From assembly GCA_905147135.1 (NCBI GenBank), contig LR990045.1, positions 18,452,173 to 18,516,172 of the forward strand: 64,000 nt of DNA. Direction: 5' to 3'. The notes below the pieces were generated by a model that saw only the letters and a program-made list of their open reading frames with translations, did no database searches and was not told the origin of the DNA. Source of the DNA: Blastobasis lacticolella (lineage: Eukaryota; Arthropoda; Insecta; Lepidoptera; Blastobasidae). A program made the position numbers and the translations under genes. This document shows, in pieces, positions 16,086 through 61,326 of this stretch. Position 1 is the stretch's first letter, and every line of letters starts with the position of its first letter.

Positions 16086-16913
16086 TGGAAAATGCATTAT
16101 GTTTTAAAATGTAAATATTCCAGTCACCACACAGTATTATTTTCTTATTTATAAATTTTGTAGTCAGTAGTCTAGCAACTTTTTTGAATGAATGAAATGA
16201 ATGATAATTTCTTTATTATTTATACACAAAATAAAACAAAAACAGAGGAAAAAAAGCCTTTTCGCGGTTATTTTTTCATTTATATATAAAAATACCAACA
16301 TGGCCTTAAATATAAAAGACACCGGCGTCATATCTAACGATTTGTAAATGAGAAGAGCTGACCTATCTCTTCTTAATTTTTTTTAGGCATGTTTTAAAAT
16401 AGAAACTATTTTGTACCTTTCCGAAAATATTTTCTCCTTTATATTGTCCCTTAGATGACTATTGTGATAAATCGTCACACACTCTTACCAACCCAAATCC
16501 AACTCCGTCAACATATATTAATGTTGAGATGAGCTATCCTCTACCTATTGGTAGACGATGGTAGCAAGACGGGCCTTTAAAATGTTTTTGAGTGTATGTA
16601 AATATATTTAGTACCTACTGTTCACCGCATTCTGACATCTCTCCTAATTTCCACACTTTCACACACTTTAAGATTATTCTGTTGCCGTGTGCATTGTTAG
16701 GAATATGAATCAATTCAAAGTCTATCCTACAACTAAAAACAAAGTATTTGTTAATAGTGTAAGAAAAATATACTCGATTATTCTCTGTCCTAAGAAATTT
16801 TCCTGTAAAGTTCTATGGTTAATAAGGCAAATGCTACAAAATATAGAGGTATCAGATACCTGGTTAGGTAAAAGTCGAGTAGGAGTTTGACACTTATAGT
16901 ATCATGTGTGTCA

Positions 16914-16976
16914 AAAAACTTCCTGGCACTCACGCTTGGATATGACATATCCAAGCGTGAGTGCCTGGAAGTTTTT
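16914..16976. repeat. Near-perfect palindrome, 31-bp arms with 1-bp spacer
   Basis: Arm 16914-16944 and arm 16946-16976 are inverted copies with one mismatch, centred on ggatatgacatatcc. Copies B (54440-54475) and C have only one of the two arms, so copy A either gained an inverted duplication or kept one that the others lost. Confidence 0.85.
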
Positions 16977-17738
16977 GTATGTATAATAAATAAAAATACC
17001 TAAATTTCATTTAGGATACAAATTTATTTATAGTCTTTTTACAAAAATATTAAACTTAACACAGTTACTATCAAAATATTTTACTAACACTTAATAATAA
17101 AACAACACTGCTCGTTACAGAAAGTACTAGGGAAATACTAGTAGGGAAATATATAGAAAGAAATAGAATTTTAAATTGTTTTTAAAATATATGTTATTAA
17201 AGGAACTAGAGACTTCAATAATATAGGGCCTAGTATTTGAAATAGCGAAAGATAATACTTTGAACTGTGATGGTGGCGGTGATGGTGATAAGAATTCCTC
17301 GAGGTCTTTACGCCCGCTGCTTGGTTTCGACGATCATGAAGATGTTTTTGTGCCATTATGGCCTATTTGCCCTGAAACCAGGGACGCTGTGCACAGGGTG
17401 TGGCTGTGTCGTCATTACTAAGCCATGGTCAGGATGTGGAGGGCCTGCCATATCAGTCATATTTTCACCTGTAGATAAAAATAAAAATATAAAAGTCAAT
17501 GCAATACTCTCCAAATTAGAATTTTACAACAGAATCAAAAATATATTTAACATTACTGATGTTATGTCTTGTATTAAAAAATAAATTATTTAATAAACAA
17601 TAAATAGTTACTACGAATTTATATCTACATAGTGTTGTTTGTACTATATTCCAAAATATAATTAATGTTAAATATACACAAACATTTTAAAATAAACTAA
17701 CAAATGAAAAATTGTAGTATAAATATACTTACATATCA

Positions 17739-18465
17739 TCAGTGAAATTCAACGCTAAAAGTTCTGGGTCCTAAAATTGGCACGCAGAACTTTGGTTCCG
17801 GATCTGGTTCAGCGGAAGCAGGTGTTTTTGATCCGTTGTTTTTGCGTACCAAGACTGGCACACAAAAGTACGGATCCGATGGTCTTATGTGCACTGTAGC
17901 CTCGTACGGGTGGGGTTTATCTACTAAATGATAATTCCCACATGGCGGTGGATCAGCTGGAACCTTTTCGTAGCGGCTAAACCATGTCTCCACCTGACGA
18001 CAATTACAGGAACGATAAATCGACAAGTCAAAATGAATCTAAATCGAGAAAGATAACAGCACTTTTATTGCTAGGTATTTTGTAAATATTTATGTCACGT
18101 TATGAAGATTAAAGTAATTAAAAATGAAAAATTACGCACAAAATAAAAAAATGCAGTGTTAGGGTAACCGACAATGATGAATGTTTATCATGTAAATCGC
18201 CAAAGTTAAATGTCCAAGAATGCCATAAGTTATAATTATGGCAACAAATTTTGTTCTGATGATATCAAGTTAGCGTTAAAAAATATAAATTTTACTTTTA
18301 ACCAAGAGAATTAATACAAATAAAAGAGGTATAATATAGAATATAACTTACCCGCTCACAACTCGCCATATATATTTCATAACGCATCATTGCGCTCTCA
18401 TTACCAAATTCGTACAAGTATGACTGCAGGCGCTCAGACCTCAAATATTCAAAATTTGCAGACAT
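17739..18465 (-). CDS. Unrecognised small two-exon gene, copy A
   Basis: Exon 1 is 18352-18465 (38 codons, starting MSANFEYLRSERLQSYL) and ends at a consensus GTAAGT donor. Exon 2 is 17739-17993 (84 codons plus stop) after a TCGTCAG acceptor; the junction is phase 0. The predicted protein is 122 residues with no signal peptide or membrane segment. The C-terminal half is rich in Pro and polar residues and has two similar 'FCVPxL' motifs (DPYFCVPVLV and PKFCVPILG). I do not recognise a family. Exon 2 differs from copies B and C by about 4 bases in 255, fewer than the intron (about 20 differences in 340 plus an 11-bp indel). Exon 1 differs about as much as the intron. It lies in a multi-copy repeat, so it may be a captured gene. 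Confidence 0.55.
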
Positions 18466-18759
18466 TCTAAAAAAGTATTTTACTAAACAAGGAACGAATC
18501 AATCACTAGATGCACTCGTAAGCAAAGGCGAATAGCGACTGGTAAACCAGACCGGCAACGCTGCTTATTTAACGAGCGCTAGCGTACCTGGATGACTAAT
18601 GCGAGTGATAAGGAAAGCATCAATTGTTATTATTATAGTCGTTCTTTACGCTGTCCTTTTCACTCGCTGGACTTTGAACTTTCTATGTTTATTTACCACA
18701 TTGGCACGCTTTCTTTGGTATTACTTCGGTATTATTAGTCTTTATTCGGTATTACAGTT

Positions 18760-21156: not shown

Positions 21157-21518
21157 ATTTAAATGAAATATTATTTCAGCCTACTAATACCGATAAGAAA
21201 AATACTGAAAATTGTTCGAAGTGAGTTACGATGGCTGCAACAAGGAAAGTCTTCCATGTCGAAACTTAGAAACAGTACTCCATATTTTTGAATAAATAAT
21301 TTGCAAAACACCCACTAGCTTCTTAAATTACTGTAGACATAGTGGAGCCAAGAGCTTGTCTACATAACAACAAATGATAAGAAGCTACGTCACTTTGTTT
21401 GCAAAAAGATTGAAAGTTATTCGAAATAATTGTCTAAAAACCGCAAGATTTTCACTGTTATACTCAGCGGAGCTCTGGTGGTCTCCAGGAACTGGTGAAT
21501 GTTGCCAATTTGAACAAT

Positions 21519-22179
21519 CTACTGAAGAATATTTCGACCGGTTCTGATGTGGCGGTCTACTAACCTCCAGGGCAGGACATTTAGCATCCAGTGTACGTCA
21601 TCGATGTCAAACTTCCAGAGGACAACGAGCAGAGGATCCAAGAACGGGAAATCCTCCATCGTTTGTCCTGTAACCATTGGGCGAGGAATAAACAGCAGGT
21701 TCACTAGTTCTTGAGGACTCAGCTGGTGCGCGTTGAAGTAAAGTCCAGACTCCGTGAAGAATAAAATCTTCTTCTGTCAGTCGGTTGGCGTCTGCAGCTG
21801 AGATAAATGGTTCTCTAAAGCTCAGGTCGTCCAGGATGACCGTTGTTATTAGAAACCGATAGAAGTTTGTGTAACTTTCAGGAGCTTGATTTCCATTCAC
21901 TTGGGTCTGATTCGACGTAGAAGTGGCGACTCTAGATGGCGCCAAAGCTATCATAGATTCCGAATCGATTTCTTCTGGGATCTGTTTTCCTATCTGTGAC
22001 GTCACTGGAGGACTTTTACTTTGACCAGACAGTAACTCAATAAGACGTCGCTTTAGTTTTCTTCTTTTCGGTTCCGAGGTTCCTGGTGCTTCGTACTCAA
22101 AGCTCATTAACTCTTTCACATTACTCTGGTTCATTTCAGAGTCTTCAATCCATTTCTCGATTCGACGATTGTCAGCCAT
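21519..22179 (-). pseudogene. Unassigned broken gene in the candidate viral insertion
   Basis: The frame opens at an ATG at 22179 (start MADNRRIEKW). The protein has an acidic N-terminus, then a basic cluster EPKRRKLKRRL (about residues 37-47) that could be a nuclear localisation signal, then a Ser/Thr-rich stretch. A folded-looking segment with FREPFISAADANRLTEEDF follows at about residues 135-155. Near 21735 the reading shifts: the original frame degenerates, while another frame continues with LVNLLFIPRPM... and stops at 21519. The abrupt change in sequence character suggests a one-base indel. Bracovirus genomes carry families of short nuclear proteins of this style, but I cannot name this one. 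A host orphan gene is the alternative. Confidence 0.5.
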
Positions 22180-22399
22180 TGTGTCAGAATAAAAACTGAC
22201 GCGTTTAGTGATAGTCTGATGGTATTTATTCTGTTTGCCAGATACCACACAAAAAAATGAATATTTGTAAATAATATATCACCGCTAAATATAAATGCAG
22301 GCGAATAATCGTCGAGCACCAAACAGAGATACTGACGTAAGTTGTGGGTGTTATGATTTAATGTAACTGCAGTGTCAAAAACTTGATAATTATGCATGT

Positions 22400-23090
22400 G
22401 TTTGGGTGGTGATTATTTATTATCACTACTGGAGGTTATTGAATGGTATTACGAGTTAAGTATCGGCTTTTACGAAGATACAAAGAAACAATTTAAATTG
22501 TTCGTACAAAACTACTGTTAAAAAGTCTTTTTATTTGTATATTATAAACTACATTAACATTTAATAGACTTCTTCTACCTGGAACAAAAAAGACATTACG
22601 TTAAGTAACATCGCAAATATTTGCCTTAGTGAACCGTTATAAGCTTTTACCTCGCATAACTTAGGAATGCATTAAAGAAGTTGATAACCGAACCAGTTTT
22701 ATTCTTTTTACATTTTTTGTTGGTAAATATCGTACCGGTTCAAGGAAAATGACCAAGTCATTGAATTACAAAAAATGGATGTGGTTTTTTACGTCTATGG
22801 TAAACTTACCGGCAGGTTCCTTAGGATTGATCAGAAAATTTGCATTTCTGGATACACAGGGACAAACTGTAAAAAAAATATTGTAAGAAACTGCTTAATT
22901 TTGCCGCATTCAAAAATACCTAATAAATGTTATCATCGATTTTCCACGTGTTATCTATGTTATAAATACTAAAATATTCACAGTATAAATTGAAAAGTTT
23001 GGGATCAGTAACTGAGGTCATCGGTAATTAAAACATTAGATAAGCTAATAACAAGCGAATAATTACTTGATTAGACGAGATCGCAGTAGA
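22400..23090. other. No gene seen
   Basis: AT-rich sequence between the two degraded minus-strand genes; a 65-codon plus-strand frame at 22775 shows no family motif. Confidence 0.35.
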
Positions 23091-23113
23091 CACACAGGCT
23101 CCCTGATTTTGGC

Positions 23114-23551
23114 CTAGCAAGTATCTGAGAATCCAGGATTGCTTCCGCTAATAATTTCAATCGCATTGTTGTTTTCGTCGATATGGGAAACTAGTTCGAA
23201 GACGTCATCTTCAACGATCTGTCTGCAGTCGAAACCGAAAAGGATTTAGTACAGATTAAGATCAAATGATCTATTTATAAATATGCTTAATTTTTGGTTT
23301 CCACAATTTTGTAATAGTACTTACGCTTCAGGGACAAGTACAAACACAAATGGATAGCCAAGGTGGTTTCTTATCAACTGAGCTTAAATCTTATTTATTT
23401 GAATGACAGGATTATCTTGCTGCCTGGTTTCTATTATTCTTCTTATAGCTTTCAAAACAAAGCTTTCCATTCCGTAAATTGGCCAAGATATCGGTACCAA
23501 AACGTCGGGTGCAAGCTGGATGTACTCAATAGAAACAAATTTTCCTTCCAT
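23114..23551 (-). pseudogene. Degraded two-exon gene with one in-frame stop, unassigned
   Basis: Exon 1 runs from an ATG at 23551 to 23325 and ends at a consensus GTAAGT donor. The intron of about 100 bp ends with a TTTCGACTGCAG acceptor, and exon 2 is 23114-23222. The total length is 336 bases, an exact multiple of three. The reading stays sensible across the junction and ends in a TAG. A single TAA at 23384-23386 (codon 56) interrupts an otherwise open frame of 112 codons. The encoded product is short, with an acidic C-terminal half (VEDDVFELVSHIDENNNAI), and no family is recognised. Intron-bearing short genes are common in bracovirus segments, which fits the nearby ankyrin gene, but this is inference. 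Confidence 0.45.
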
Positions 23552-23934
23552 GGTACAAAAGAGAAAATAAACGTCCTTCTTCTACGAGTTTAAAGTATGA
23601 AATACAATACGGGAACGATATCTACTTTAGGTCATGAATAGATGTAAGAGGTGAAATAATCAATTTATGTACTTGTGATATATATTATCGGGTTTGTTAC
23701 CACGGTTAGTATTAAAAGGAGTAGTGAAAGTGTAGTGAATAACCACGAAAGTCTTAAAACCTATATTACTTGTGATATGTTAAGAGACCGTAATACATTT
23801 TTACAACAGAGTTAAGCAGAATTGTAAGGGACTATACTTTTTTTACCATAAAAAAATAATATAATAATATAAAAATATTTTTTATAAAAATTTTTCAGAC
23901 TACGGAGACTCTTGATCTTTCGCCTCGACAACAT

Positions 23935-24005
23935 TAGTCGCCTTGTACGACACCCATGAGTGTAAAGGGTTGGTGCTATTCTACTCAGCCGGACACCACA
24001 CGGCA
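23935..24005. repeat. Short lepidopteran LINE 3'-end remnant
   Basis: The words ttagtcgccttgtacgacac and ccggacaccacacggca are characteristic of a dispersed lepidopteran repeat (RTE/Jockey-type 3' region). Related inverted words occur at 52395-52465 and 60802-60872, and part of it at 33424-33452. Confidence 0.55.
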
Positions 24006-24744
24006 TTAAATTGGCATGTAAAACATGTTACGTCCAATGACTTCTACATAAAGGACCAGTTCATTGACCAAAAGAAATAGCTCCATATCATTGGAGCGTA
24101 AACTGCAATTGCGCTCCAACTACGTCTCAGTGACGTTTTGGCCACGTATACGAATGGTCGTTACTTTACAATCTAAGAATGCCGAATTGCGTAGGAAACA
24201 CATGCACTAATTCCGATAAACAGTAACCAAAAACAAGAATGGAGTATCTTTTTTCCTTAGAGTATAAGAAATATCATGTATCACTTGTAAAACTTATATT
24301 TTTAGCATTTACAATAAATATTTAAGTGTTTATTGCTACATTATTAACCGGCCATGATTAGTTGGTATGTTCAATCAAATTCAATGCACGCCATCTGCTT
24401 ATTTTTTATTTGGCAGTCTTACATTTATGCGCACGATGTGACTTTGCACCAGCGGCATAATGCCGTTGATTTTGTTTTCGCGGAAGTAATATTATTATAG
24501 ATAAAAATAGATAACAGATGAGTATACAAATTAATCAATAACAATAATATCGTTATGTAATGTAGCTTCAAACAGTCAACATAATAATAAAAACGTATGT
24601 GTTAAATCGTTAAAGAATTCTACAACAACAAAAGTGGTATAATTTTAAAGGAGGTAAAATGATAAAGATTGAAGGTTGGATGGGTAAATTGACGAATCCC
24701 AATTATTACTGTTTAGATATTTATATTTAAAGCATTACGTTACA

Positions 24745-25075
24745 ACAATTTTGTACGCTTTTACCATGTTATATATGGCGCCTTGGCGAGATTGATGACC
24801 GACGTCTTTTTTTTTTTTTTATGTTACTTAGCAGACAAACAGGCAAGCGGGCCACCTGATGGAAAGTGGTCACCGCCGCCTATGGACATCAGCAACACCA
24901 GGGGAGTCACCAATGCGTTGCCCGCCTATTCTAGTGTATTTATTTTAGTGTGTCTATTTTAGTGCTTAAAACCGGTGGCCAAAACTGGAACTAAGTGTTG
25001 CCATATTGAAATAATATGTCATTGCCAACAACAGCGACGGTGTCACCGGGTCAAATAAGTTTGTGGCACAAGAGA
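24745..25075 (+). repeat. Left member of a degenerate direct duplication (partner 25725-25905)
   Basis: Words such as accatgttatatatggcg, ggtggccaaaactggaacta and agtgttgccatattgaaat recur in the same order and orientation at 25738-25905 with many changes. The left member is split by the SINE-like repeat. Confidence 0.7.
24803..24935 (+). repeat. SINE-like dispersed lepidopteran repeat
   Basis: A T-run is followed by the words cacctgatggaaagtggtca, ccgccgcctatggacatcag and gggagtcaccaatgcgttgc. I associate this pattern with a very abundant moth and butterfly repeat. It interrupts the left member of the duplicated segment at 24745-25075. Confidence 0.65.
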
Positions 25076-25117
25076 CTGCGCCATTATATTTAATATGGTA
25101 TGGTTTATTTATACTTA

Positions 25118-25537
25118 TACAGGGTGTAAAAAGAAACATACCCGCGGAAACTCATAGTTTAGGCAGAAATCGAGATTCTTCTAAAAAGAAAAGTTTGTAT
25201 TTTTGTACTAAAAAATATCAAGTACGTATCGATACAGCTCAATTAATTTAGACACTCAAAGTTCAAATTTAAGTTGAAATAAATGCACTTTAAGTAAAAG
25301 CACGCAATGTAAAGCGTGCAGGCCGGCCGGCCACGCAGCGTCAGTGGCCACTGGTCACGTAGGCGAGCGACAGGCGTGCGCTGGACGATGTACATAGCGC
25401 GTCGCAATTAATTATTTATTTTAGGCAGCGAAATTATGAAGTCATTTCCGCGGGTATGTTTCTTGGGGAAAGTTGTTCAGTTTCATGGGTAGAATATGGG
25501 GTTTCAATTAATGCTAGCGGTCTTTTTACACCCTGTA
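25118..25537. mobile_element. MITE with TACAGGGTGT termini and TA target duplication (420 bp)
   Basis: The left end TACAGGGTGTAAAAAGA and the right end TCTTTTTACACCCTGTA are inverted copies flanked by TA on both sides. A second inverted pair (aaacatacccgcggaaa / tttccgcgggtatgttt) lies inside. The centre has an unexpectedly GC-rich block (25315-25400). TA duplication suggests a Tc1/mariner-type mobilising enzyme. Confidence 0.8.
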
Positions 25538-25905
25538 TATCCGTGAATCCATCGATGCATTACACATGGCCATTAAATACGGGTAAAACAGAAAAAAATA
25601 CTTAATACTGTGATATATTTAGTACAGCATAACTCTAAACGAACTAAAATTAAGCTCGAAAATAGCTATCCAACGACGTATTACACATACCTATTGGAAT
25701 GGTTACCACTGTCCATACAAATTCTTGTACGCGTTAACAATGTTATATCTGGCGGCTTGACAAGATTGTTGACAAACCTATTCGACCCGGTGGTCAAAAC
25801 CAGAACTAAGTGTTGCCGTTTTGAAATTAAATGTCAATGCCAACAACAGCGACGCTGTCACCCGGTCAGACATGTTTGTGGCACTGTAGACAGCGCAGTT
25901 TTATT

Positions 25906-26750
25906 TACTATGGTAACCGTCAGAGTTATTTGTTCGCTCAACCGGTTCCAGGGTATTTATTTCTATGGTTACGTCGGTATTAGTTGACCGAGATCAGTTC
26001 AAGGTTTTTGCAGCGATGACTCGTTGGGTAAATATAATAACAAATTTAGCAGACACGACTGGTACTCCCTAAATATTATTATCATATGTAAACAAAAAGT
26101 TATGAATGAATCGTGCGGTGCATAACGTACTCAAAATCGTAACCTTGGTAGTAGATGTTTGTATCTTTGTATGGTAATTTCGTTGCATAATGTTTAATCT
26201 TATGCAATCTTCTCAAGTACAATTTGGTCAACGTCTACATTAAGATATAACGGTTATCATTTGCTCCCGGATTTCAATTACCGATTAATAAAGTTACACC
26301 TCCCCATTTACAGAGTGATTTATGAGCTAAGACTGCTTCGTACATGTTTTTATAGGATGAAAGTGAGTGTTGACATTATAATGCATCGTTAAATATATAA
26401 ACCTTTCAGTTGCGAATATTATTAGAATGTTTTCGCTTGTACATGTCACAAAAACGAGCTAAATTATAGCCTTGTTTATTGGACAGAATTGCAATTTGTT
26501 TGATCACATCTTATATTAAATCGAGACTACCACGTATGCGACAAACCTAATAAAGAAATTCTTGTGCTGACTTTGGGGTAATCAGTGATACTATGCAGGG
26601 GAATGGAAAGTCATTTTAAGCGATAACCGTTGACATTTGAATGAATCTGTTATCATGCATCCACTTATACTTAACGAGCCACGAAACAAGTGATTCAGTC
26701 GTGTTCTAGCGGTTGAATTATAAACTCGTAATGTATCGCAAGGGATAACT
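25906..26750. promoter_or_regulatory. Upstream region of the ankyrin gene
   Basis: There is no other gene in this stretch. A TATA-like run (aaatatataaacc) lies at 26391-26403, about 350 bp before the ATG. Weaker AT-rich words lie nearer, so the true promoter cannot be placed. Confidence 0.3.
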
Positions 26751-27257
26751 ATGAGCGGGTCCAGGAATGAAGAAGGAGACAATCTTGCACATTATTTGTG
26801 TCGTACTGGAGGTGTAAACAATCTAATGTTTCTTCATGACCTAATAAATGAGAGCAACAGACATTGTTTGATGGGATACAATGAAAAGCAGCAACAATGT
26901 GTTCATATTGTTGCTATGGAACCTCTAGACTCTGTGGAGAAGATGAAGCTTCTGGTGCTTTGGAGAGCGGATATCAATGGGAAAGAACTAAACGATGGTG
27001 ACACTCCTTTACATATTGGAGTAAAGATCAGGAATTATGAACTGGTAAAATGGTTGTGTCAACAGCCAAATATCAACCGGGAAGCGATGAACAAAGAATG
27101 TATGACCCCATATCATATTGCGTTTGTGAACAGAGACCAGAAGATGATGGATTTGCTGAAGATAAATGGAGCCCAGTGCAAAATCCCTTTGCAATCAGAA
27201 TCTAATTCCGGGGATGAAGACTATGAACCGCAGAACAAGAGTATGAAACAAATGTGA
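26751..27257 (+). CDS. Bracovirus-like ankyrin-repeat protein (viral I-kappa-B/vankyrin family), apparently intact
   Basis: A 168-codon uninterrupted frame starts at an ATG at 26751. Four ankyrin repeats are visible at about residues 8-38, 48-78, 83-113 and 118-145. Helix-turn hallmarks include GDTPLHIGVKIRNYELVKWL in the third and CMTPYHIAFVNRDQKMMDLL in the fourth. The layout, the CVHI and TPYHIA boxes and the 'WRADING' turn resemble the short I-kappa-B-like proteins of bracoviruses. In that family these bind NF-kappa-B/Rel factors without the N-terminal degradation signal, damping host immunity. As in that family, there is no long N-terminal regulatory region. An acidic tail occupies residues 149-168. 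No intron is seen. The frame is open despite decayed neighbours. A cellular ankyrin gene is a less likely alternative, since host cactus-type proteins are much longer. Confidence 0.8.
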   Translation: MSGSRNEEGDNLAHYLCRTGGVNNLMFLHDLINESNRHCLMGYNEKQQQCVHIVAMEPLDSVEKMKLLVLWRADINGKELNDGDTPLHIGVKIRNYELVKWLCQQPNINREAMNKECMTPYHIAFVNRDQKMMDLLKINGAQCKIPLQSESNSGDEDYEPQNKSMKQM

Positions 27258-27800
27258 CGAGGTGTAGTGTTATTTGTTTTTATATTCTAGTTGATAAGAA
27301 TAGTTGTCTATAATGTGAACAAACGTTAGCTGTAAATTTATTTATCAATTCGTTTACTGAGTCACTAGAGCACTTTGGCAATGATCTATAAGTCTTTGGA
27401 ATGTAAACACTGATTGACGTTAGCATATGCATCCATATTTGATTGCGTTCGCAGAAAGACGCGTTTATTTTTGCCAGCGGTCATCGCACTTGTCACTGCA
27501 TAAAAAAGAAATAGTCTCCTTTTCCCAAATCTATAAGAAAGGATTATTTCTAATGGTTTTGAAAAGTTAAAATCTATAAAAAATACTGTCTTACTGTGCA
27601 AATATAAAATATGCAATTTTAAAATAATTTAAATCTATTGTTAAGTCTATATAGTTCATGATCATGTATAAAGATATGCATAGAACTGCGTTATTTATTT
27701 TAATTTGTTATCTAAGAAGAAATAGGTCATAGACATAATTATAAAATATTGAATATTTCTTCTTAATGTTTTTATGTTAGTTATTATCTCGTTACAGACA
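27258..27800. other. No gene seen
   Basis: AT-rich sequence between the ankyrin gene and the 3' end of the RLE-type LINE. The right end of any viral insertion should lie here, but I saw no repeat or motif that defines it. Confidence 0.35.
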
Positions 27801-27826
27801 TAAAATTAAACACTAATACTAAAATA

Positions 27827-30233
27827 TTATGTATTAAAAAAATCATCCACACCGTTGTCCCGCGGAATGGTGCCCAGAAAGCTAGCTGCGTTGCCTCGTT
27901 GGATAGCAATACTTATCCTCTGCCCGAGGAACGCGCCAGCTCTCCGGTCACCTGTGGTGTCAATCAGCTTTTTGCTTAAAACTTTGAAAAGCTTTAAAGC
28001 ATCAGGGCCCCACGGTCCCAACGTCTCAACCCCAAACGGCTGAAATATGAAGTCCTGGGATAGGCTTTCATATTTCCTACGTTTGAGATCCTCAGCAGCA
28101 GAGGCCGCAGCTCCAGCGTTGCGGGCGGTAGAGGTTACATGGGACGGCGCCAGAGTGTCCACGCAAGTAGCGTCCCACACCAGCGCCCTCCCACGTTTCC
28201 AAGCAATGAGCGTCATGCCGTCAGGCCTCTTGCCATCGTCACGTACGGTACCATTCGGCTCTAATACGGCCGGTACGTTGACGGTGACAAGCGCCCTTCG
28301 GATGACGTCATTTATTGCCGCGTGTCTAGAGATTCGGCCTGCGCTACGACTACATGACAGACCGTGGTGCCCCAGCGAATCCACATATGCACCACAGGGA
28401 CACCAATGTGGATGAACGAGGTTGACCCCCAACCTCAAACCCAAACAAATAGATAACGATAAGTTATCTAAAACGGTGCCGATATTTAGGGAAGGGACAG
28501 CTTGAAGCCAGAATCCTGACTCCCGCTCAGAAACGGCCAAGAGACGAGCACGTTCCGAAACACTAGACTAAAATTTCGAATTTTGATTGTTTTTCTTTTA
28601 AGAAAGCCGGAATAGACTCGTCCATGATGGGAGCACCCAGAAGGCGGAGGTTTTCGTCATTTAAAATTTTAATTCCCGGTGCAGTAGAGTCAAATTCAGT
28701 TATGATTTTTTCTTTGTCAGTCAATTTTGGGTCCAAATATAACTCACATTTCGAAAAATTTAAAGTAAGGCCGATTTTCTGGAATTCAGATGTTAAAATA
28801 TGTAAATCTTTTAAAACCGTAGCTGCTTCACCTCCGAGTGTCCCGTCATCCAGGTACCAAATATTAAATTTAGACTGTAATTTTGATATTATAGGATGTA
28901 TTGCCAAACTGAAAATTGCTGGTCCGAGTGGGTCTCCCTGTTGACACCCTACTTCAGAGTTCAAAACGTGAGATTTGTACATTAATTTAGAAGGGATATT
29001 GTAACATTGCCAAATGTAAGGTAGTAGTTCTGGACATTGTTGTTTAATTTCAATGAGTAGGGTGTCTCTATTTACCGAATTGAATGCGTTTTTGACGTCC
29101 ACTTTTAAAACCACCTCAGCCTGGTCGTGGGTTATACAAGCCCGCAAGGCATGTACAGCGGCTTCGCAGCCACCTTTACTTCCAAAACCAAGCTGAATAG
29201 GTTGAAACGCGGACGTTAATTTTGGTGCCAATTTTTTACAAGAAATTTTGGAGGCGAGTCTCCGAAGGGTGGTTCCCACAGCAATCGGCCTCACTCCTCC
29301 ATCTTTTTTTATTAAAGCGCACAGGTTTGCACCATACAGCGTCTCAATTATATCTGAGTTTACCCTCCCCGCCAACATGACATTGATCAGGGCGGTGAGA
29401 TCCTCCAAGAGCTTGGCTCCAGCGTCCCCGCAAGACTTGCACAACAGGTCTTTAAGATGCTGCGGTGAAAGTCCGTCGAGGCCGCCGGCTGAGCCGTTCT
29501 TGAAGGACATCACCGCCGTCAGAACATCGTCACAGTTAGCGGTGAGGTGGGCGGCGGTGGTAAGATCAGGAGGAGTCAGATCAGGCTGTGGTGCTGATGG
29601 GTGTTTATCTTTGAGTGCTATTAATGTTTCCTGAGAGTCAGGGGCGAGGGAGTCCTGCGAAAACAGCAGCTGCGCTGCACCCTTTATGTCCCCGTCACTC
29701 ACCTTCTCTTCAATTTTCCTCTGCTTATTATATGAATGATAGAAACGGCTTGTCTGGAAGAAATTATCCAAAGGGTTATTTTCGGAACAATTTAGTTTAA
29801 TTTTGGTTGTTAGAGATTTTGAATTTTCGTTATTTACATTAAGAATATAGAATGGGAATGTGAGAAGTTGTGTCCAGGCGCGCTTTGTGTTTTCTTTTAT
29901 CGTGTTTTTAATAATGGATGATAACTTGTGTGCGACTGTTATACGAGCGCCCCGTGGTATCCTTTTTATGACTGGCACTGTCCGTTTTAGGTTTGAAAGA
30001 TATGACCACAGGGGCTCGTCCTGATTTGTGCTTGATGGAGGGGTGGTATAAAAATTTGGACACGATGATGGTATGTTATTTGGGTTTTCCTTGTGTTTTT
30101 TTCCAATATGAATATTAAGGCCGCGTTTGGTATTAAAAAAGCGCGCCTGGGGGCAGAGGAAACACTGGAAAGAAGTGGCTCCATCGATTGAATGCCCTCG
30201 AATATCGGCACCGTTATTTGCACTCACTGACAT
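27827..30233 (-). pseudogene. RLE-type (R2/NeSL/Hero-like) LINE, copy 2, nearly complete with internal deletion
   Basis: A single-ORF non-LTR retrotransposon on the minus strand. From an ATG at 30233 it has a C2H2 finger (CFLC...HIGKKH), then RPIAVGTTLRRLASK and a catalytic aspartate in LKVDVKNAFNSVN. GCQQGDPLGPAIFSLAIHP and the catalytic WYLDDGTLGG (about 28855-28880) follow. This frame ends at a TAG at 28563. The homology resumes immediately at 28540 with SERESGFWLQAVPSL, then a cysteine-histidine cluster CPCGAYVDSLGHHGLSC, and a restriction-like endonuclease with KRPDG...ALVWDATCVD (PD-D type). The thumb region normally expected between the two parts is missing, so a deletion with frame change happened at 28540-28563. 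The catalytic motifs of both enzymes are intact. The 3' UTR reaches about 27780. Confidence 0.85.
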
Positions 30234-30479
30234 ATACAAAAACTATAATAAAATATGTAAAAAATGAGGCAATCTTACGGTAATTATAACAATTTAAAAC
30301 ATACAAAGCACAAACATCCATATATCACAAAAAACACATTTTCTTTGACGGCAACGGTGACGTGCGTGACGCGCAAAGTTTACTCCGCTTTTTATACTGC
30401 GCGCGCAGAATCTGACTTTATGCAGCCCTTCATTGCTATGGCGACGGCAGCGTGGCGTTATGACAATAGTTTTGTCAAA

Positions 30480-33450
30480 AAATGAATATAAAAATATTTC
30501 ACCAGGCTTGCCCTAATGCGCAGGCTCCAGCGATGTCCACAACGCACACAAGCGCTGGCGTATACTAGACACAGTTTTCAAAAGGTCAGGGGTGTTAGAC
30601 CCTCGGAACTATTTATAAAACATTATAATTCACAGTGTACAATTAGTTGGTTTTCAGTTCTTTTTTTTTTATTATTATTATCTTAAGTTGTGATATATGT
30701 CTTAGTCTAAAAACTTTATAATTTTAATTACATGTTATCTTTATTGATTTCTTGTTGACTGCAGACTTTCTTTGTAAAATTTGTTGTGCATTTTTGTTCA
30801 TTCTTTCAAAAGCTTCAAGAAATTACCATCTGTACACATATAATTCGTTTTTAAGACTCTCCTTTGTTGACCTTCATGGCTCTAAATTCACCTTATACAA
30901 AGTACCAAAGGCGGTTCGTAGCACGCGTTACTGGCCAATTTATCACTTGGAGACTATATTGAGGCCTCACCTTGCAAAGGGCGAAAAAATGAGTAAAGCT
31001 CATGCGGTCATTGATTCCTTTTGCCTGGAATATAAACAAATGTTGCACCGGATTATCTTCATTCCATAAACAATCGCCGCGCCAGACGTTCGGAAGAAAT
31101 ATAGTAAACAATGGCCTACTTTCATTGCATCGTACCAAAGGCTTGGGACTCTATTCCTGAGTTTTTTACCGATTTGCTCGTCCATTTCTATCTGGAAGAG
31201 CATTGTAAACTTTATCACTCTCTCTTCGGACTATCATGGACCCACGACGGTATCTCAGCGGTTTCTTAAAATTACCAGGATACTGCCGTATGGTTCAAGA
31301 TCATCGACGACAATGAAGATCATCCAACTCCTGAAAACTACATGACTATTGAAGTTGCTAGGATCCAGTAATCTCCTACAAGTGTCCAGTGCTAGTGTTA
31401 GACTTAAGGGTAATGTTAATAATTTTTCCAATTGTCCAAGTCCTAGTGCTAAGTAAGTTAAGGTTAATTCCAAGCGGTTATGGTCTTAATTATATTTTTT
31501 TATAAGAATTTTCCTGTTGTTTTCTTTTAATATTTTGATGCGCACCCTCAGAAAATCTCTAAACAATTCAACTCTGAATCAGAGTAGTCTTCTTCCTAAC
31601 AGTTTCGAATTCTGCCAAGTCCCTAACTTTCGAGTTTGAAACACTTCCTTGTAACCAGGGGATCGAGAGAAACCAAGAAATAGGAATTTAAAATTAGTTT
31701 TATTCAATTTTAAGAATTATTACATGTTAACAGAAATGAACTGCTGACTAACCTGCGACTATCATGACCGACCGAGAAACAGTTTTAGTCAATGTTTGTA
31801 CTTTGGACTGCACGAAATGAATGAGCTGCAAATCGATAAGATCAATAAGTAAAACGAAATACTATACAATATCTACTATCAGCAATGTATATTAAATATT
31901 AAATATTAATATTATGTATAACTCAACACATTACATTGTATTGTATTGTGACATTGTATCTATTTTAACTTTTTATATGCAGCCAGCATTAAAGGCATCA
32001 TCTCCAACAGTGACATCCATTTAAGTGATATTTACACATATAGATTTTTAGATTAGGAAATTACACTTTTTCCTAAAACACCTTAAAAAAATATGGAAAT
32101 GGCGCTGAATGGATCTTGATAGTTGGTAGTTTAGGGTTTTTACACTTCTACACCGTTTGATAGTTTGGGGTCCAACTTAGAACCAAAGATACAGCTTATC
32201 CTCTTGAATAAAATAAACTGCCTGAAAAACGATTTCCACGCGGTCGAAGTTGCGGGAAAAAGTTAGATTAGTAATAAATAGTACCAGTTGAAGTTACATA
32301 CATATTACTTAATTATGTGTACATTTGACTGCAGGTAAAATCATGGCTGATGAACAGGCGTAGCGTAGTGGCAGACCCTCCACCCTACCCGGACCAAGCC
32401 CCAATTATGGCAATACCACCACATCCCTGAAACAACGCCCCTGATGGTGGAGAATATAGGCCCAAATTGCTATAGCAATTTTACGATAACTTTTGGCCTG
32501 CACAAAGTTTGGACCTAACATCACTAACGTCCTCTAAAACATACAACGGACCGGAAGACCTCAAAGTGTACGTTTCGCCTTCACCGCGCACATGTCGCAC
32601 TCACCCTTCAGGTACGATAGTCTCCAGCATTTTCTCCAAACTTTTGATTTTGCTAATCAGCCTTATTCCCTTCCAGCCACAGAATGATTAGAAACACATT
32701 CTCTTTCAACGAATTTCACATCCCTACCACTAGACTGTCCCTTAGGTGACTATTGTGACATACCGTTACATACACCTACAAATTTAAATTCTTCCCCATC
32801 ACACAACTCTCCTACACAACACTCACTTCTCTAACCAAATCCTTTTAACACTCTACTCTCTCACTCTATTGATACAAATTTGTCGAAATTATCGAAGATT
32901 CCTCAGCTAGGTATACCAATTGTAGTATATCCGCTCTGTATGCCTAGTATACATAGTTTAGACCCTCAACAACCAGTACGATATATGCCCTGGTCGTGTA
33001 ACGATTAAAGGGGTTATATATCTTCAACAAGGAATTATTTAATTTCATTGTCCATTTTAAGGTAAATTTTTGTAAAATTGTAATTAGAATAAGTAGTTTG
33101 GTTAAGGTTAGGGTATATTGTGTATCATGTATATTAAGATTTTTAATGTAAATAAATTTAGGTTATCAATACTTGTGTAAATAAATGTTGTGTACCTTTA
33201 TTCAGTGCATTTTATTAATAATTATAATATACACATAATTCACTTCTATATCATACTCTGGCCTAGACTTTTGAGTGCCACTGTGTTTTGCCTCATCCAC
33301 ATTCATACAATTTCAGCGGAAGTGGAAGTTATATATTACTCTTCGAACAATATGTAAGTGTGCATATTTCTTTTAATACTTACCTACAAGTTTACTTAAA
33401 AGAGCTTAAGTAAATATAAAATTGTGTGGCCGTGTGGTGTCCGGCAGAGT
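30480..33450. other. About 3 kb without a recognised gene
   Basis: Several open frames (30752-31138, 31255-31473, 32509-32691) show no known motifs. A segment at 32728-32800 (ctgtcccttaggtgactattgtgaca and following) resembles the outer end of duplicated unit A (16443-16500), so a diverged relative of that repeat may be present. The rest is AT-rich and unremarkable. Confidence 0.4.
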
Positions 33451-34307: not shown

Positions 34308-36216
34308 ATGTCACTTCTTCGAGAAATAATTGAGGAAAGTTTTTCTGAAGACGAATGTGATTTGCTGGTCACCGAAAGACCTAGAAAAAGAAAAGTGTAC
34401 TTCTTCAGGCCCGATCGCTTTACAACGTGGGATGACGCATCGTTTTTAGCAAGATTTCGAGTCTCTAAAAACATGGTACGGTGGCTGGTGACAAAAGGTT
34501 GCAACGGTGGTTAAACCCTCCGACGATGAAGTAAGTTTTCTTTTGTATATAAGTACATAATATTACGTAGGTACCATTTATATATCTATCGCAAGGGTGA
34601 CCAAAGATCCTAATTTGCGTAAGTTAGCTATGACTTAGCTATTTGTATATTTCTATAATGAATGGCATGTCACTAGGTAAGTCAGTACAAAGTAATATCA
34701 GATTACTTAGGCACAGAAATACATACATACACCTTACAACTTAAATGATTTTCAGAAATAAAGCAGTTACACCAGAGCAGCAAGTACTGATAGCATTAGA
34801 ATATAATGCTTGTGGTTCTTATCAAAGATGTGTTGGCGATACAGCTGGCGTTTAGAAGTCACCGTATCACGCATAATATATAGGGTGAGCCGAGCAATCG
34901 CAAGTATGAAAACAGAGTGGATATCAATGCCACGGAGCGCTGAGGATATGGAAATGACGGCAAGAGAATTTTATAGAATAAGTGCTTTTCCTAAAGTAAT
35001 CGGATCGATTGATTGCACTCATATACCAATCAAGTCTCCAGGTGTGTATTTACTTTAGACATTGTTTCATTACCAACTATCTGTGCATCTATATAAAATT
35101 TTATTTCCAGGAGGTCCAAATGCTGAACATTACAGAAATAGAAAATTGTCATTTTCTATGAATGTACAAGCCATCTGCGATGCTAACATGTATATAACAA
35201 ATGTATATAACAAAGCAGTTACACCAGAGCAGCAAGTACTGATAGCATTAGAATATAATGCTTGTGGTTCTTATCAAAGATGTGTTGGCGATACAGCTGG
35301 CGTTCAGAAGTCACCGTATCACGCATAATATATAGGGTGAGCCGAGCAATCGCAAGTATGAAAACAGAGTGGATATCAATGCCACGGAGCGCTGAGGATA
35401 TGGAAATGACGGCAAGAGAATTTTATAGAATAAGTGCTTTTCCTAAAGTAATCGGATCGATTGATTGCACTCATATACCAATCAAGTCTCCAGGTATGTA
35501 TTTACTTTAGACATTGTTTCATTACCAACTATCTGTGCATCTATATAAAATTTTATTTCCAGGAGGTCCAAATGCTGAACATTACAGAAATAGAAAATTG
35601 TCATTTTCTATGAATGTACAAGCCATCTGCGATGCTAACATGTATATAACAAATGTTGTTGCGCGTTGGCCTGGTAGCAGTCATGATAGCCATATGTTCG
35701 ATGGTACTATATTATAAATAAGACTATAACACAAAGTTACTTCAAAAGACACTTTGTTTAAATGAGTAATTTGACATTTAACAGGGCAGACTAGAGGATG
35801 GTGAATTTGAGGGCTACTGGTTGGTCGGTGACAAAGGTTACGCAGCAAAACCCTATTTGTTGCCACCTCTTCGTAATCCAAGTACTGATGGAGAAAAATT
35901 ATATTATGAAAGCCAAATACGAACAAAAAATGTAATAGAAAGAGTGTTTGGATGTTGGAAAAGAAGATTTCCTGCCCTTTCTATGAAAATAAGGACTCGC
36001 TTAGAAGGAGTCCAGCCTATCATAGTGGCTACTGCCGTACTATACAAAATTTGCAAAAAAATGCGATATCCTATGCCAACATTGCCACTAAACTGGAATA
36101 ATGAGGATGCATATTCAACAGATGATGAGGACAATGGTATAATATATACAGGTACAGGAGATGATAGTAATAGGTCACTATTGATCAATATATATTTCAG
36201 TAGATTAAGGCGTTAA
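34308..36216 (+). pseudogene. Harbinger transposase, multi-exon, disrupted by frameshift, stop and internal duplication
   Basis: Exon 1 starts at ATG 34308 and encodes an N-terminal segment (RFTTWDDASFLARFRVSKNMV). The next exon (from about 34757) encodes TPEQQVLIALEYNACGSYQR and then VTVSRIIYRVSRAIAS...VIGSIDCTHIPI with the first catalytic aspartate. Then come GPNAEHYRNRKLSFSMNVQAI...VVARWPGSSHDSHMF with the second catalytic Asp region, and GDKGYAAKPYLLPPL...RTKNVIERVFGCWKRRFP with the final glutamate (35830-35975). The C-terminus is acidic. A 452-bp block (34761-35212) is tandemly repeated at 35213-35660. Both copies share a one-base frame loss just after GVQKS. Copy one also has a TAG in that motif. 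A further break is seen at the end of exon 1. Not functional as it stands. Confidence 0.85.
34761..35660 (+). repeat. 452-bp tandem duplication inside the Harbinger transposase
   Basis: Sequence from aagcagttacaccagagcag at 34761 recurs at 35213 with a constant offset of 452 bp through to about 35660, nearly identical. It covers an exon, an intron and the start of the following exon. Confidence 0.95.
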
Positions 36217-51839: not shown

Positions 51840-52394
51840 GATCTATGGTTTGTTACTGCTTCACAACTTCACATCAACTTGAATATAATAACAAAAGGTA
51901 TTAAAATTATATAGAAAATAACGTCTCCATCGCCAAAGAGAAATAAATTAATAAAATTAACAAAACCAAAAGGTATGTTAAGAAATACATAATTCGTAGA
52001 CCATTTAAAATAATGGTCGCCTCCAAACAAACATAGTATCCTCTCTTTTTCAGAACATAATATAATGAATTGCAATAACATAAGGAGATTACATTAAAAT
52101 TTTAAATTAATGTTTCAACGACGAACAGTTGTTTGAAAAGGAATCGTAATAACCGTTAGTAAAAATATAACTATTCATCAGGGCAAGGCCCTACACACCG
52201 TCTAAAATCTCTTCTCCTTTTTTCGTGTCCTGAATACACCATCATATCGTTTTGAGATTGGTATCGTATTAATGATCAAACACCTGACTGTAAAGCTGTG
52301 TATAGCGTTGGATAGTTACATTATGTTACATTACATATGTGTAACTTTCCACAATACTGAAAGTTATAATTTTTGTTTTAATAACTATAGTCGT

Positions 52395-52625
52395 GGCCGT
52401 GTGGTGTCTGGCAGAATAAAATAAAATTAACCCCTTATATTAATGGGTGTCGTATAAGGCGACTGAAGTTTCCGAGTCAAAAGTTCTGGAGTCTTCATAG
52501 GTTACAAAATGAGCAGCAGCGTTTTAATTTCTATATATATAACCCTGTGATATTCAACTCACATGCCATGCGCGGAGATTATGGCAATAACCTCCCATCT
52601 CGAGGCTATACGTCCACCAGTGGAT
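52395..52625 (-). repeat. LINE 3'-end remnant within unit B (also 60802-61033)
   Basis: The words cgtggccgtgtggtgtctgg, gggtgtcgtataaggcgact and gaggctatacgtccaccagt, ending in gatgatgaa, have the style of RTE-type lepidopteran LINE 3' ends. No coding part remains. Confidence 0.5.
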
Positions 52626-52918
52626 GATGAATTATAGTCGTATTAAAATAATTCCGAATAAAGAACGACAAAGAAAGCGTGCAAATGTGGTAAATAAACA
52701 TAGAAAGGTCAAAGTCCAGCGAGTGAAAAGGACAGCGTATAGAACAACTATAATAACAATTAGTGCTTTCCTTATCACTCGCATTAGTCATCCAGGTACG
52801 CTAGCGCTCGTTAAATAAGCAGCGTTGCCGGTCTGGTTTACCAGTCGCTATTCGCCTTTGCTTACGAGTGCATCTAGTGATTGATTCGTTTCTTGTTTAG
52901 TAAAATACTTTTTTTAGA

Positions 52919-53633
52919 ATGTCTGCAAATTTTGAATATTTGAGGAACGACCGCCTGCAGTCATACTTGTACGAATTTGGCAATGAGAACGCAATGATGC
53001 GTTATGAAAAATATATGGCGAGTTGTGAGCGGGTAAGTTCTATTCTCTTTTATTTGTATTAATTCTCTTGGTTAAAAGTAAATTGTATTTTTTTAATCGC
53101 TAACTAGATATCATCAGAACAAAATTTGTTGCCATAATTATAACTTATGACATTCTTGGACATTTGACTATGGCGATTTACATGATAAACATTCATCATT
53201 GTCGGTTACCCTAACACTGCTTTTTTTATGTTGTGCATATTTTTCATTTTGAATGTATTTTAATCCTCATAATGTGATATAAATATGTACAAAATAACTA
53301 GCAATAAAAGTGCTGTTGTCTTTCTAGATTTAGATTCATTTTGACTTGTCGATTTATCGTTCCTGTAATTGTCGTCAGGCGGAGACATGGTTTAGCCGCT
53401 ACGAAAAGGTTCCAGCTGATCCGCCGCCATGTGGGAATTATCATTTAGTAGCTAAACCCCACCCGTACGAGGCTACAGTGAACATAAGACCATCGGATCC
53501 GTACTTTTGTGTGCCAGTCTTGGTACGCAAAAACAACGGATCAAAAACACCTGCTTCCGCTGAACCAGATCCGGATCCAAAGTTCTGCGTGCCAATTTTA
53601 GGACCCAGAACTTTTAGCGTTGAATTTCACTGA
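52919..53633 (+). CDS. Unrecognised small two-exon gene, copy B
   Basis: Exon 1 52919-53032 (MSANFEYLRNDRLQSYL..., 38 codons) with a GTAAGT donor; exon 2 53379-53633 after TCGTCAG, phase 0. The product is 122 residues and lacks a signal peptide. Pro-rich segments include VPADPPPCGNYHLV, and the two FCVPxL motifs of copy A are conserved. A GTAAGT donor follows the stop (53640), and a ctacag acceptor at about 53904 suggests a further, probably untranslated exon. That exon would contain MTTQPHPVHRVPGF in its longest frame. AATAAA-type words lie near 54390. Compared with copy A, five residues change in exon 1 and three to four in exon 2. It is almost identical to copy C. Function unknown. Confidence 0.55.
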
Positions 53634-55227
53634 TGATATGTAAGTATATTCTTACTACAATTTTTCATTTGTTTGTTGATTTTAAAATGTTTGTGTATAT
53701 TAAACATTAATTATATTTTGGAATATAGTACAAAAAACACTATGTAGATGTAAATGCGTAGTAACTATTTATTGTTTATTAAATAATTTATTTTTTAATA
53801 CAAGACATAAAATCAGTAATGTTAAATATATTTTTGATTCTGTTGTAAAATTCTAATTTGGAGATTATTGCATTGACTTTTATATTTTTATTTTTATCTA
53901 CAGGTGAAAATATGGCTGATATGGCAGGCACTGTTGACCATGGCCATGACTTAGTGATGACGACACAGCCACACCCTGTGCACAGAGTCCCTGGTTTCAG
54001 GGCATATGTGCCATAATGGCACAAAAACATCTCCATGATCGTCGAAACCAAGCAGCGGGCGTAAAGACCTCGAGGAATTCTTATCACCATCACCGCCACC
54101 ATCACAGTTCCAAGTATTATCTTCCGCTATTTCAAATACTAGGCCCTATATTATTGAAGTCTCTAGTTCCTTTTATAACATATCCTTTTAAAACAATTTA
54201 AAATTCTATTTCTTTCTATATATTGCCCTACTAGTATTTCCCTAGAACATTCTATAACGAGCAGTGTAGTATTATTATTTAGTGTTAGTAGTAATATTTC
54301 AGCGATATTTTTGTAAAGCTTTGTTTTTTCTTAATATTTTGATAGTTACTGTGTTAAGTCTTAATATTTTTGTAATAAGACTATTAATAAATTTGTATCC
54401 TAATTTTTTAATTTTCACTTATTTAAATTTATTATACATACATATCCAAGCGTGGGTGCCAGGGAGTTTTTTGACACACATGATACTATAAGTGTCAAAC
54501 TCCTACTCGACTCCTACCTAACCAGGTATATGAGCCTCTTTGATACCTCTATATTTTGTGGCATTTGCCTTATTAGCCATGGAACATTACAGGAAAATTT
54601 CTTAGAACAGAGAATAATCGAGTATATTTTTCTTACACTATTAACAAATACTTTGTTGTTAGTTGTAGAATAGACTTCAAATCAATTCATATTCCTAACA
54701 AAGCACACGACAACATAATAATCTTTAGCTAGCGCTTTTTGTCACGAACAGTTAAACAGAAGTGTGTGAAAGTGTGGAAATTAGGACAGATGTCAGAATG
54801 AGGTGAACAGTAGGTACTAAATATATTTACATACAGTCAAAAACTATTTAAAGTCCCGTCTTGCTACCATCGTCTACCAATAGGAAGAGATAGTTCATCT
54901 CAACATTAACGTATGATGACGGAGTTGGATTTGGGTTGGTAAGAGTATGTGACGGTTTATCTCAATAGTCATCTAAGGGACAATATAAAGGAGAAAAGAA
55001 CACTTATTATGACATAACTTTAATAGTTAGACATATACTGTCACGACACTTTTTGTAGATAATTATGTGTTCTGCAAAGTCGTAGTACATTATTTTGTTC
55101 TATCATCAATAGTTTTCGCAGCACACGCGATGTAAGGAATTGTTTGGGTATTTTTTTACACTTTGGGTTACATTATTGGAGTTTTATTAATGATCTGTAA
55201 ATGTTTAGAAAATATTATATAGCCTAT

Positions 55228-55346
55228 GTCACCCGGGGATAGTGTAGCTTCCCAACGGTGACAGAATTTTTGAAGCCTATTCAATACAAACAAACAAACA
55301 AACAAACAAAAAATCAAACATTTCCTCTTTATAATATTAGTATAGA
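55228..55346. repeat. Dispersed lepidopteran repeat tail (also 63633-63742)
   Basis: The wording cacccggggatagtgtagct through caaacaaacaaacaaacaaa to cctctttataatattagtat is a familiar lepidopteran repeat end. The acaa repeat is shorter in unit C (one caaacaaacg instead of several). Confidence 0.55.
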
Positions 55347-60050: not shown

Positions 60051-61326
60051 ATCATATTTATTAATATCTGCAAATATTGGTGATATATTTTGTATCCAAC
60101 CGGTATGTCTAGTATGTAAAATTATATTTAAAAAATTATTTGACAACCACTCCATACTGGCGGTCGCTTTTACTAAGTTTATGGCTCTGGATACTGCGAT
60201 TCCACCCCGTGGTAAGTACGAACAAAATGTTTGCCATCATGACATCGATCTATGGTTTGTTACTGCTTCACAACTTCACATCAACTTGAATATAATAACA
60301 AAAGGTATTAAAATTATATAGAAAATAACGTCTCCATCGCCAAAGAGAAATAAATTAATAAAATTAACAAAACCAAAAGGTATGTTAAGAAATACATATT
60401 TCGTAGACCATTTAAAATAATGGTCGCCTCCAAACAAACATAGTATCGTCTCTTTTTCAGAACATAATATAATGAATTGCAATAACATAAGGAGATTACA
60501 TTAAAATTTTAAATTAATGTTTCAACGACGAACAGTTGTTTGAAAAGGATTCGTAATAACCGTTAGTAAAAATATAACTATTCATCAGGGCAAGGCCCTA
60601 CACACCGTCTAAAATCTCTTCTCCTTTTTTCGTGTCCTGAATACACCATCATATCGTTTTGAGATTGGTATCGTATTAATGATCAAACACCTGACTGTAA
60701 AGCTGTGTATAGCGTTGGATAGTTACATTATGTTACATTACATATGTGTAACTTTCCACAATACTGAAAGTTATAATTTTTGTTTTAATAACTATAGTCG
60801 TGGCCGTGTGGTGTCCGGCAGAATAAAATAAAATTAACCCCTTATATTAATGGGTGTCGTATAAGGCGACTGAAGTTTCCGAGTCAAAAGTTCTGGAGTC
60901 TTCATAGGTTTCAAAATGAGCAGCAGCGTTTTTAATTTCTATATATATAACCCTGTGATATTCAACTCACATGCCATGCGCGGAGATTATGGCAATAACC
61001 TCCCATCTCGAGGCTATACGTCCACCAGTGGATGATGAATTATAGTCGTATTAAAATAATTCCGAATAAAGAACGACAAAGAAAGCGTGCAAATGTGGTA
61101 AATAAACATAGAAAGGTCAAAGTCCAGCGAGTGAAAAGGACAGCGTATAGAACAACTATAATAACAATTAGTGCTTTCCTTATCACTCGCATTAGTCATC
61201 CAGGTACGCTAGCGCTCGTTAAATAAGCAGCGTTGCCGGTCTGGTTTACCAGTCGCTATTCGCCTTTGCTTACGAGTGCATCTAGTGATTGATTCGTTTC
61301 TTGTTTAGTAAAATACTTTTTTTAGA

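Follow-up and report, generated by a model that had tools for sequence, protein, structure and literature searches.

Bracovirus DNA in lepidopteran genomes

Germline polydnavirus integrations mediated by the host-integration motif (HIM) were reportedly described in many lepidopteran species by Heisserer et al. in 2023. Germline insertion of bracovirus DNA in Lepidoptera is already known, and what is unusual about the insertions treated here is their scale and a 3-bp target-site duplication. The integration motif of bracoviruses is written as '8+5', that is, GAAATTTA/TAAATTTC plus ACCAG/CTGGT, and ACCAG is the form reported for CvBV (PMC8460044). According to another paper, the vankyrin and PTP segments of CtBV all integrate in host tissue, and somatic junctions without microhomology lie almost always at one exact position (PMC8549517), which resembles the fixed unit ends described below. 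The searchable texts of these two papers contain no mention of target-site duplications. Like the HIM insertions of these sources (PMC8460044, PMC8549517), the insertions described below are bounded by inverted J1/J2-like ends, agree with the inner 8-mer of the motif at 7/8 positions in two unit families (A and C), have different bodies with similar ends and carry circle-type genes (vankyrin, phosphatase). Unlike them, they are germline and multi-copy, their border 5-mer differs, and the 8-mer agrees at 5-6/8 positions in unit B and in a phosphatase-bearing unit.

Transfer of bracovirus genes to Lepidoptera has been established for BEN, BV2-5 and C-type lectins (Gasmi 2015, PMC4574769). The transferred genes are described there as ancient, rearranged remnants under mainly conservative selection, and a term search of that text finds no mention of ankyrin, vank, Cydia or Tortric. 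The present case is similar in that bracovirus DNA lies in a moth or butterfly genome; compared with those remnants (PMC4574769), whole units are found here, they are many, and they are partly young. In the titles and abstract openings of the literature searched, a scope that leaves the most relevant paper outside, no vankyrin insertion in a tortricid is described.

The vankyrin frame and its relatives

The window, by which is meant the whole 64-kb stretch of DNA analysed (G000:C6:18452173-18516172), lies in a 21.9-Mb contig of an assembly of 577,033,349 bp in 45 contigs. It contains one vankyrin frame, and a second was not found within the 64 kb.

26751..27257, + strand: vankyrin (viral I-kappa-B-like ankyrin) frame, open, intronless, 168 aa (by translation, Pfam, protein search and AF2)
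26731..26748, + strand: upstream ATG, ending after five codons here; in frame with the vankyrin in sister copies

As the original prediction had stated, the frame is intact, running for 168 codons from ATG to TGA with no internal stop. Pfam recognises ankyrin models alone in the protein (Ank_2, E=1.3e-9, residues 53-144). The AF2 model has a mean pLDDT of 77, and its helices span residues 12-138. Against a library of viral folds the best matches to this model are viral ankyrins, the named leaders being polydnavirus ankyrins; in the PDB, rank 1 is I-kappa-B-beta bound to NF-kappa-B, and many designed and natural ankyrin proteins score similarly. Binding of a Rel/NF-kappa-B dimer is a prediction from the fold match to I-kappa-B-beta only. 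Vankyrins are defined in PMC3359993 as I-kappa-B-like ankyrin domains without the parts for phosphorylation and ubiquitination, and the window protein, judged by its size only, would fit this definition.

The bracovirus vankyrins of Cotesia and Glyptapanteles are, like the window protein, short and ankyrin-only, and they have in common with it a C-terminal tail, which is acidic in the window protein. Unlike them, the window gene sits in a moth chromosome, exists in many copies and is missing its upstream start region. In full-length stop-free copies of the same unit family the vankyrin frames are longer (181-212 aa), with an in-frame start further upstream. Because the upstream ATG at 26731 ends after five codons, the open frame of the window begins at a methionine that is internal in the family. 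The one non-synonymous change private to the window copy is G72R, at a position where 12/12 other alignment rows have G.

The closest relative is a Cydia pomonella protein (85%). It came from a first protein search that gave 12 matches at E<=1e-3 from 19 candidates: five from bracoviruses or Cotesia/Glyptapanteles, two from Cydia pomonella and five unnamed. Ordinary cactus is absent from the 12, but the search was restricted to proteins of 0.55-1.75 times the query length, a range that excludes full-length cactus by design. Four Cotesia/Glyptapanteles bracovirus entries have 60-68% identity over 96-99% of the query, a pseudogene fragment of 103 aa has 70% identity across 59% of it, and the second Cydia pomonella protein is 66% identical. 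A profile search then gave 19 proteins from 1034 candidates, the seven additions being more distant or partial, with an ichnovirus vankyrin (30%) among them. The relatives of the gene would point to a tortricid-like moth. Neither the viral-contig set nor the phage set held a relative.

Kinship, and kinship only, was judged from a 43-row tree whose moth rows are the window and 26 sequences chosen from fetched copies, with four named bracovirus rows and one named ichnovirus row; more divergent bracovirus ankyrins, which exist according to the fold search, are not among its rows. In it, all named bracovirus rows fall together with a single unnamed row (89/93), nested among moth, Cydia and unnamed rows; the moth label requires three changes, and ten rows fall in no group. 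The window protein appears to group with bracovirus ankyrins, in a tree that has no cactus row for direct contrast, and the nesting of the bracovirus clade, as far as these sequences tell, leaves the direction of transfer unfixed. The original prediction had claimed a bracovirus-type vankyrin in a lepidopteran genome, to be checked by just such a search and tree, and this part of it is supported, on a contig 21.9 Mb long and next to moth-type transposons. Most likely, the window vankyrin was brought by a bracovirus insertion.

A repeated unit

A genome search with the window vankyrin gave at least 150 scored vankyrin-like matches (415 candidates), which by hand count are spread over 29 contigs. 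Among the matches listed, 14 cover at least 150 residues, the window included, and are 89-100% identical to the window protein, 12 of the 14 being stop-free; there is a second group at about 74%, and others range from 63% down to 31%, in addition to fragments. The window vankyrin is one of very many copies, so the moth has not kept just one such gene. One contig, C8 (21.75 Mb, 3.8% of the assembly), has 44 of the 150 matches listed, counted by hand, and may be a non-recombining (W-like) chromosome collecting insertions.

The limits of the units were drawn from twenty 9.9-kb stretches around vankyrin copies. Unit A is uninterrupted in four copies of 5,865-5,870 bp, and two more have deletions (5,293 and 5,799 bp); pairwise identity among the six is 99.2-99.9%. 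Two A units, L015 and L016, have one deletion in common compared with the other copies, a sign of sub-lineages. The gene content of unit A, as read in copy L012, is the vankyrin and ORFs of 253, 76 and 86 aa. Unit B, about 6.15 kb, has the layout of A at about 73% identity to it, and its copies are 96.0-99.6% alike. Unit C, about 9.4 kb, has two vankyrins and no blastn match to A or B. In group D (the 36% group), L051 has, as well as its vankyrin, a pair of ORFs (303 and 265 aa) that match Y_phosphatase (E=2.3e-34 and 7.3e-31), and the homology of L051 and L052 continues to the edge of the fetched stretch.

The companion ORFs of A, B and C match no Pfam family at E<=0.01, and the three of A match none in NCBIfam. 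No transposase was recognised in a Pfam scan of ORFs of 70 aa or more in A (L012), in B (L024), in L029 and in one L049 ORF (C), a scan outside which lie two further short B ORFs, the other short C frames and autonomous partners elsewhere in the genome. A genome search with PF00102 gave at least 151 tyrosine-phosphatase matches (150 scored, 963 candidates), on 27 contigs by hand count. Those listed are all above the cut-off and are mostly single open frames of about 300-345 aa, many with identical scores; a few are probably ordinary moth exons, for example the first row, with its frame of 1077 aa. Their number, identity and single frame suggest that the phosphatase frames are of the bracovirus kind. 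At G000:C8:16525530-16564070 phosphatase matches form an array on one strand, with a spacing of about 1.4 and 2.8 kb. The PIF-1 family, a nudivirus core family and the one family tried, had 0 matches in the genome, but its control likewise matched nowhere.

The unit around the window vankyrin belongs to family A and is laid out as follows.

21241..31651, + strand: whole unit A, 10,411 bp owing to later insertions (alignment to sister copies)
21241..21267, + strand: left end, HIM-like motif, one mismatch to sister copies
31625..31651, + strand: right end, imperfect inverted repeat of the left end
21238..21240, no strand: left target-site copy CAA, 2/3 bases matching the right copy
31652..31654, no strand: right target-site copy TAA
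21607..22179, - strand: companion ORF remnant; 253 aa in L012, frame departing after about 144 aa here
23384..23581, - strand: small companion ORF remnant; 76 aa in L012, shortened here
31113..31373, + strand: place of a small companion ORF; 86 aa in L012, frame shortened here (coordinates by offset)
23857..25967, no strand: stretch unmatched in sister copies, a later insertion or replacement
about 27790..30663, - strand: non-LTR retrotransposon (RT) inside the unit, best named relatives lepidopteran

The decayed neighbours that had been noticed beside the open frame are real, being the companion ORFs of this unit, broken in comparison with sister copy L012. The retrotransposon at 27790-30663 has its best named relatives in Lepidoptera, Cydia and Choristoneura included, with a few other organisms in the lower rows of the 120 listed; in the stretch searched its flanking repeat is 9 bp. 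Contamination from a wasp or its virus, named at the outset as a possible refutation, is ruled out because the window is part of a contig of 21.9 Mb in an assembly of 577 Mb. It is also countered by the invasion of the unit by this lepidopteran-type retrotransposon, and by the L012 unit, which lies inside a reverse-transcriptase-like frame.

Unit ends, target sites and the integration motif

The ends of the A and B units are imperfect inverted repeats at fixed positions. With the ends placed so as to show a 3-bp duplication, the duplication is exact in 11 of the 12 copies that have both ends covered, the exception being the window (CAA vs TAA). All 11 exact duplications end in A, which possibly reflects a target preference or a constant end base; in the C units a target duplication is uncertain. 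Terminal inverted repeats together with a target duplication of constant length are found here as in cut-and-paste DNA transposons. Chance repeats can be rejected on the 11/12 duplications and on a genome scan with the A left end at up to 3 mismatches, which gave 20 sites against 0 for a reversed-pattern control. Matched by hand, 16 of the 20 left ends have an A-type vankyrin no more than 17 kb away, and a large class of short, internally deleted derivatives is not seen. The four that have no listed A vankyrin nearby are at G000:C7:15922348, C8:4830152, C8:4920624 and C23:4191371.

One empty site can be reconstructed. If unit A and one duplication copy are taken out of L012, a 408-aa open frame runs across the junction, and its part before the junction resembles reverse transcriptase (18.1 bits, E=0.0023, below the curated cut-off and over the first 46 of 205 profile positions). 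Since this frame is open across the site, unit A was inserted later than that element.

Units A, B and C have similar motifs at their ends. In a phosphatase-bearing unit, for which the left end only is seen, homology breaks at a motif that agrees with the A end in 20/28 positions (P about 2e-6 for one fixed alignment, four queries having been tried), and the next 914 bp have no match to five A, B, C and D loci; similar ends thus bound unrelated bodies. The inner 8-mer, located twenty bases inside the ends, agrees with GAAATTTA at 7/8 positions at both ends of A and C, at 6/8 and 5/8 in B and at 5/8 in the phosphatase unit. The 5-mers at the ends are CAAGG, CAAGA, CTAGG or ACAGG, to be compared with ACCAG of CvBV. 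Fixed inverted-repeat ends of the J1/J2 type seem to be common to what may be different circles. Insertion of a circle through the HIM would also entail loss of the 41-73 bp between J1 and J2, and the insert would have circle genes, no nudivirus core genes and an internal direct repeat junction.

Selection and age of the copies

Between A and B, dN/dS of the vankyrin is 0.17-0.19, well below 1, and that of the companions is 0.42, 0.28 and 0.17 (one pair each). Among recent A copies it is at least 0.5 on few changes, for example 7.5 N : 2.5 S between the window and L012, and the B copies give 0.3 from 7 changes. In the 10 open-frame A copies, those with stops being left out, the private changes, each seen in one copy alone, amount to 15 N : 5 S, which is dN/dS of about 0.7 with a wide error. 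They are distributed as 1 N : 2 S in the window, a share too small to be read alone, 3:0 in L009, 4:1 in L010, 7:2 in L017 and 0 in six copies. These post-insertion counts do not differ significantly from those between A and B (Fisher P=0.14). On these small numbers, the spreading form looks constrained and change since insertion looks nearly neutral, and purifying selection since insertion is not apparent in the A copies.

The original prediction had left a choice between recent arrival and retention by selection. The former is favoured, the frame of the window being open probably because the insertion is young; the latter is not supported, in view of the 15 N : 5 S. The window gene is probably an intact-looking but neutral copy, to judge from these substitutions, and the insertion probably a young one left to decay rather than a gene kept for the use of the moth. 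The further suggestion, an immune regulator kept by the host, is not supported: there are at least 150 vankyrin-like matches, the companions are broken, later insertions interrupt the unit, and change is near neutral. A benefit for the host from this copy is unlikely.

Origin of the units

How can so many units with such ends have entered a moth genome? We put a probability of roughly 0.7 on repeated germline integration of bracovirus circles in the moth, the window vankyrin belonging to one of them. A caterpillar would survive parasitism and a bracovirus circle would enter the germline of the moth; the circle would open at the host-integration motif and be inserted between copies of a 3-bp target, and this would have happened many times with several circles, some with vankyrin, some with phosphatase and some with both. 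The vankyrin of the window, if transcribed, might behave like an I-kappa-B, binding Rel dimers while escaping degradation on signal, and so damp Toll/Imd responses. We infer a wasp source; likewise, the end motif would be a true HIM, and entry into the germline would have taken place in failed parasitism. In favour of a wasp source, dN/dS is low in all four unit genes, which argues for a spreading form at home in the wasp, where a vankyrin is of use.

The main rival is transposition inside the moth. A bracovirus-derived unit, after one or few entries, would have become mobile when a host or transposon enzyme recognised its ends and made the 3-bp duplications. Inverted ends with exact duplications in 11/12 copies, the near-identity of the copies and the common deletion of L015 and L016 are what such mobility would leave, and the weaker HIM match of B and of the phosphatase unit moves the odds slightly toward it. 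We consider it unlikely, though to be taken seriously: no transposase was recognised among the A, B and C ORFs tested, four unit genes at dN/dS of 0.17-0.42 between A and B are hard to explain as passive passengers, a swarm of short internally deleted copies is lacking (16/20 left ends are near an A vankyrin), and the phosphatase-bearing unit has a similar end on a different body. Transfer in the reverse direction, in which polydnaviruses took their vankyrins and motifs from an older lepidopteran mobile family having these ends along with ankyrin genes, is very improbable. It would account for the moth copies, which among those listed range from 31 to 100% identical to the window protein and enclose the bracovirus clade as sampled, and recruitment of the HIM from viral elements or transposons is one scenario in section 23 of PMC8549517. 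That clade, however, is sampled by four named bracovirus rows and one named ichnovirus row while more divergent bracovirus ankyrins exist, and the units are accompanied by phosphatase genes, a bracovirus gene family listed in the same paper (PMC8549517). Put together as one proposition, it is rather doubtful that bracovirus-derived units with HIM-like ends spread by themselves in this moth lineage, with an exact duplication of 3 bp at each site, or that they are what is left of a lepidopteran mobile family which supplied the bracovirus and ichnovirus motif and vankyrins.

There is scarcely any probability left for domestication, in which selection would have kept a gene from a bracovirus at the window locus for the host. 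The frame is open, the private changes of the window are 1 N and 2 S, and the 26/168 differences between window and Cydia proteins avoid conserved columns (permutation P=0.0004). This avoidance fits selection before insertion and would fit selection after it as well; against domestication, pooling the private changes of the 10 A copies gives 15 N : 5 S, companion genes are broken and equivalent copies are many. The number of copies and the near-neutral change rule out a sole gene kept by the host.

If the units are integrated circles, as we favour, chromosomes of this moth would be an archive of parasitoid virulence DNA, in which complete units bearing vankyrins or phosphatases differ in age, and rates of germline entry, the mechanism of insertion with its 3-bp duplication and the evolution of bracovirus genes would become measurable from one host genome. 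If they are self-mobile in the moth, a mobile element of a new kind would have arisen from a wasp virus. Either reading bears on the origin of the bracovirus and ichnovirus integration motifs, treated as an open question in section 23 of PMC8549517.

Other repeats in the window

Away from unit A, the stretch 51840-55606 is directly duplicated at 60247-64000 (3.77 kb, 98.9% identity), and a further copy, diverged and in inverted orientation, is at 16430-18736. At 34760-35656 a 452-bp unit is present in two tandem copies of 99% identity, and a DDE_Tnp_4 fragment is located nearby at 35782-36213.
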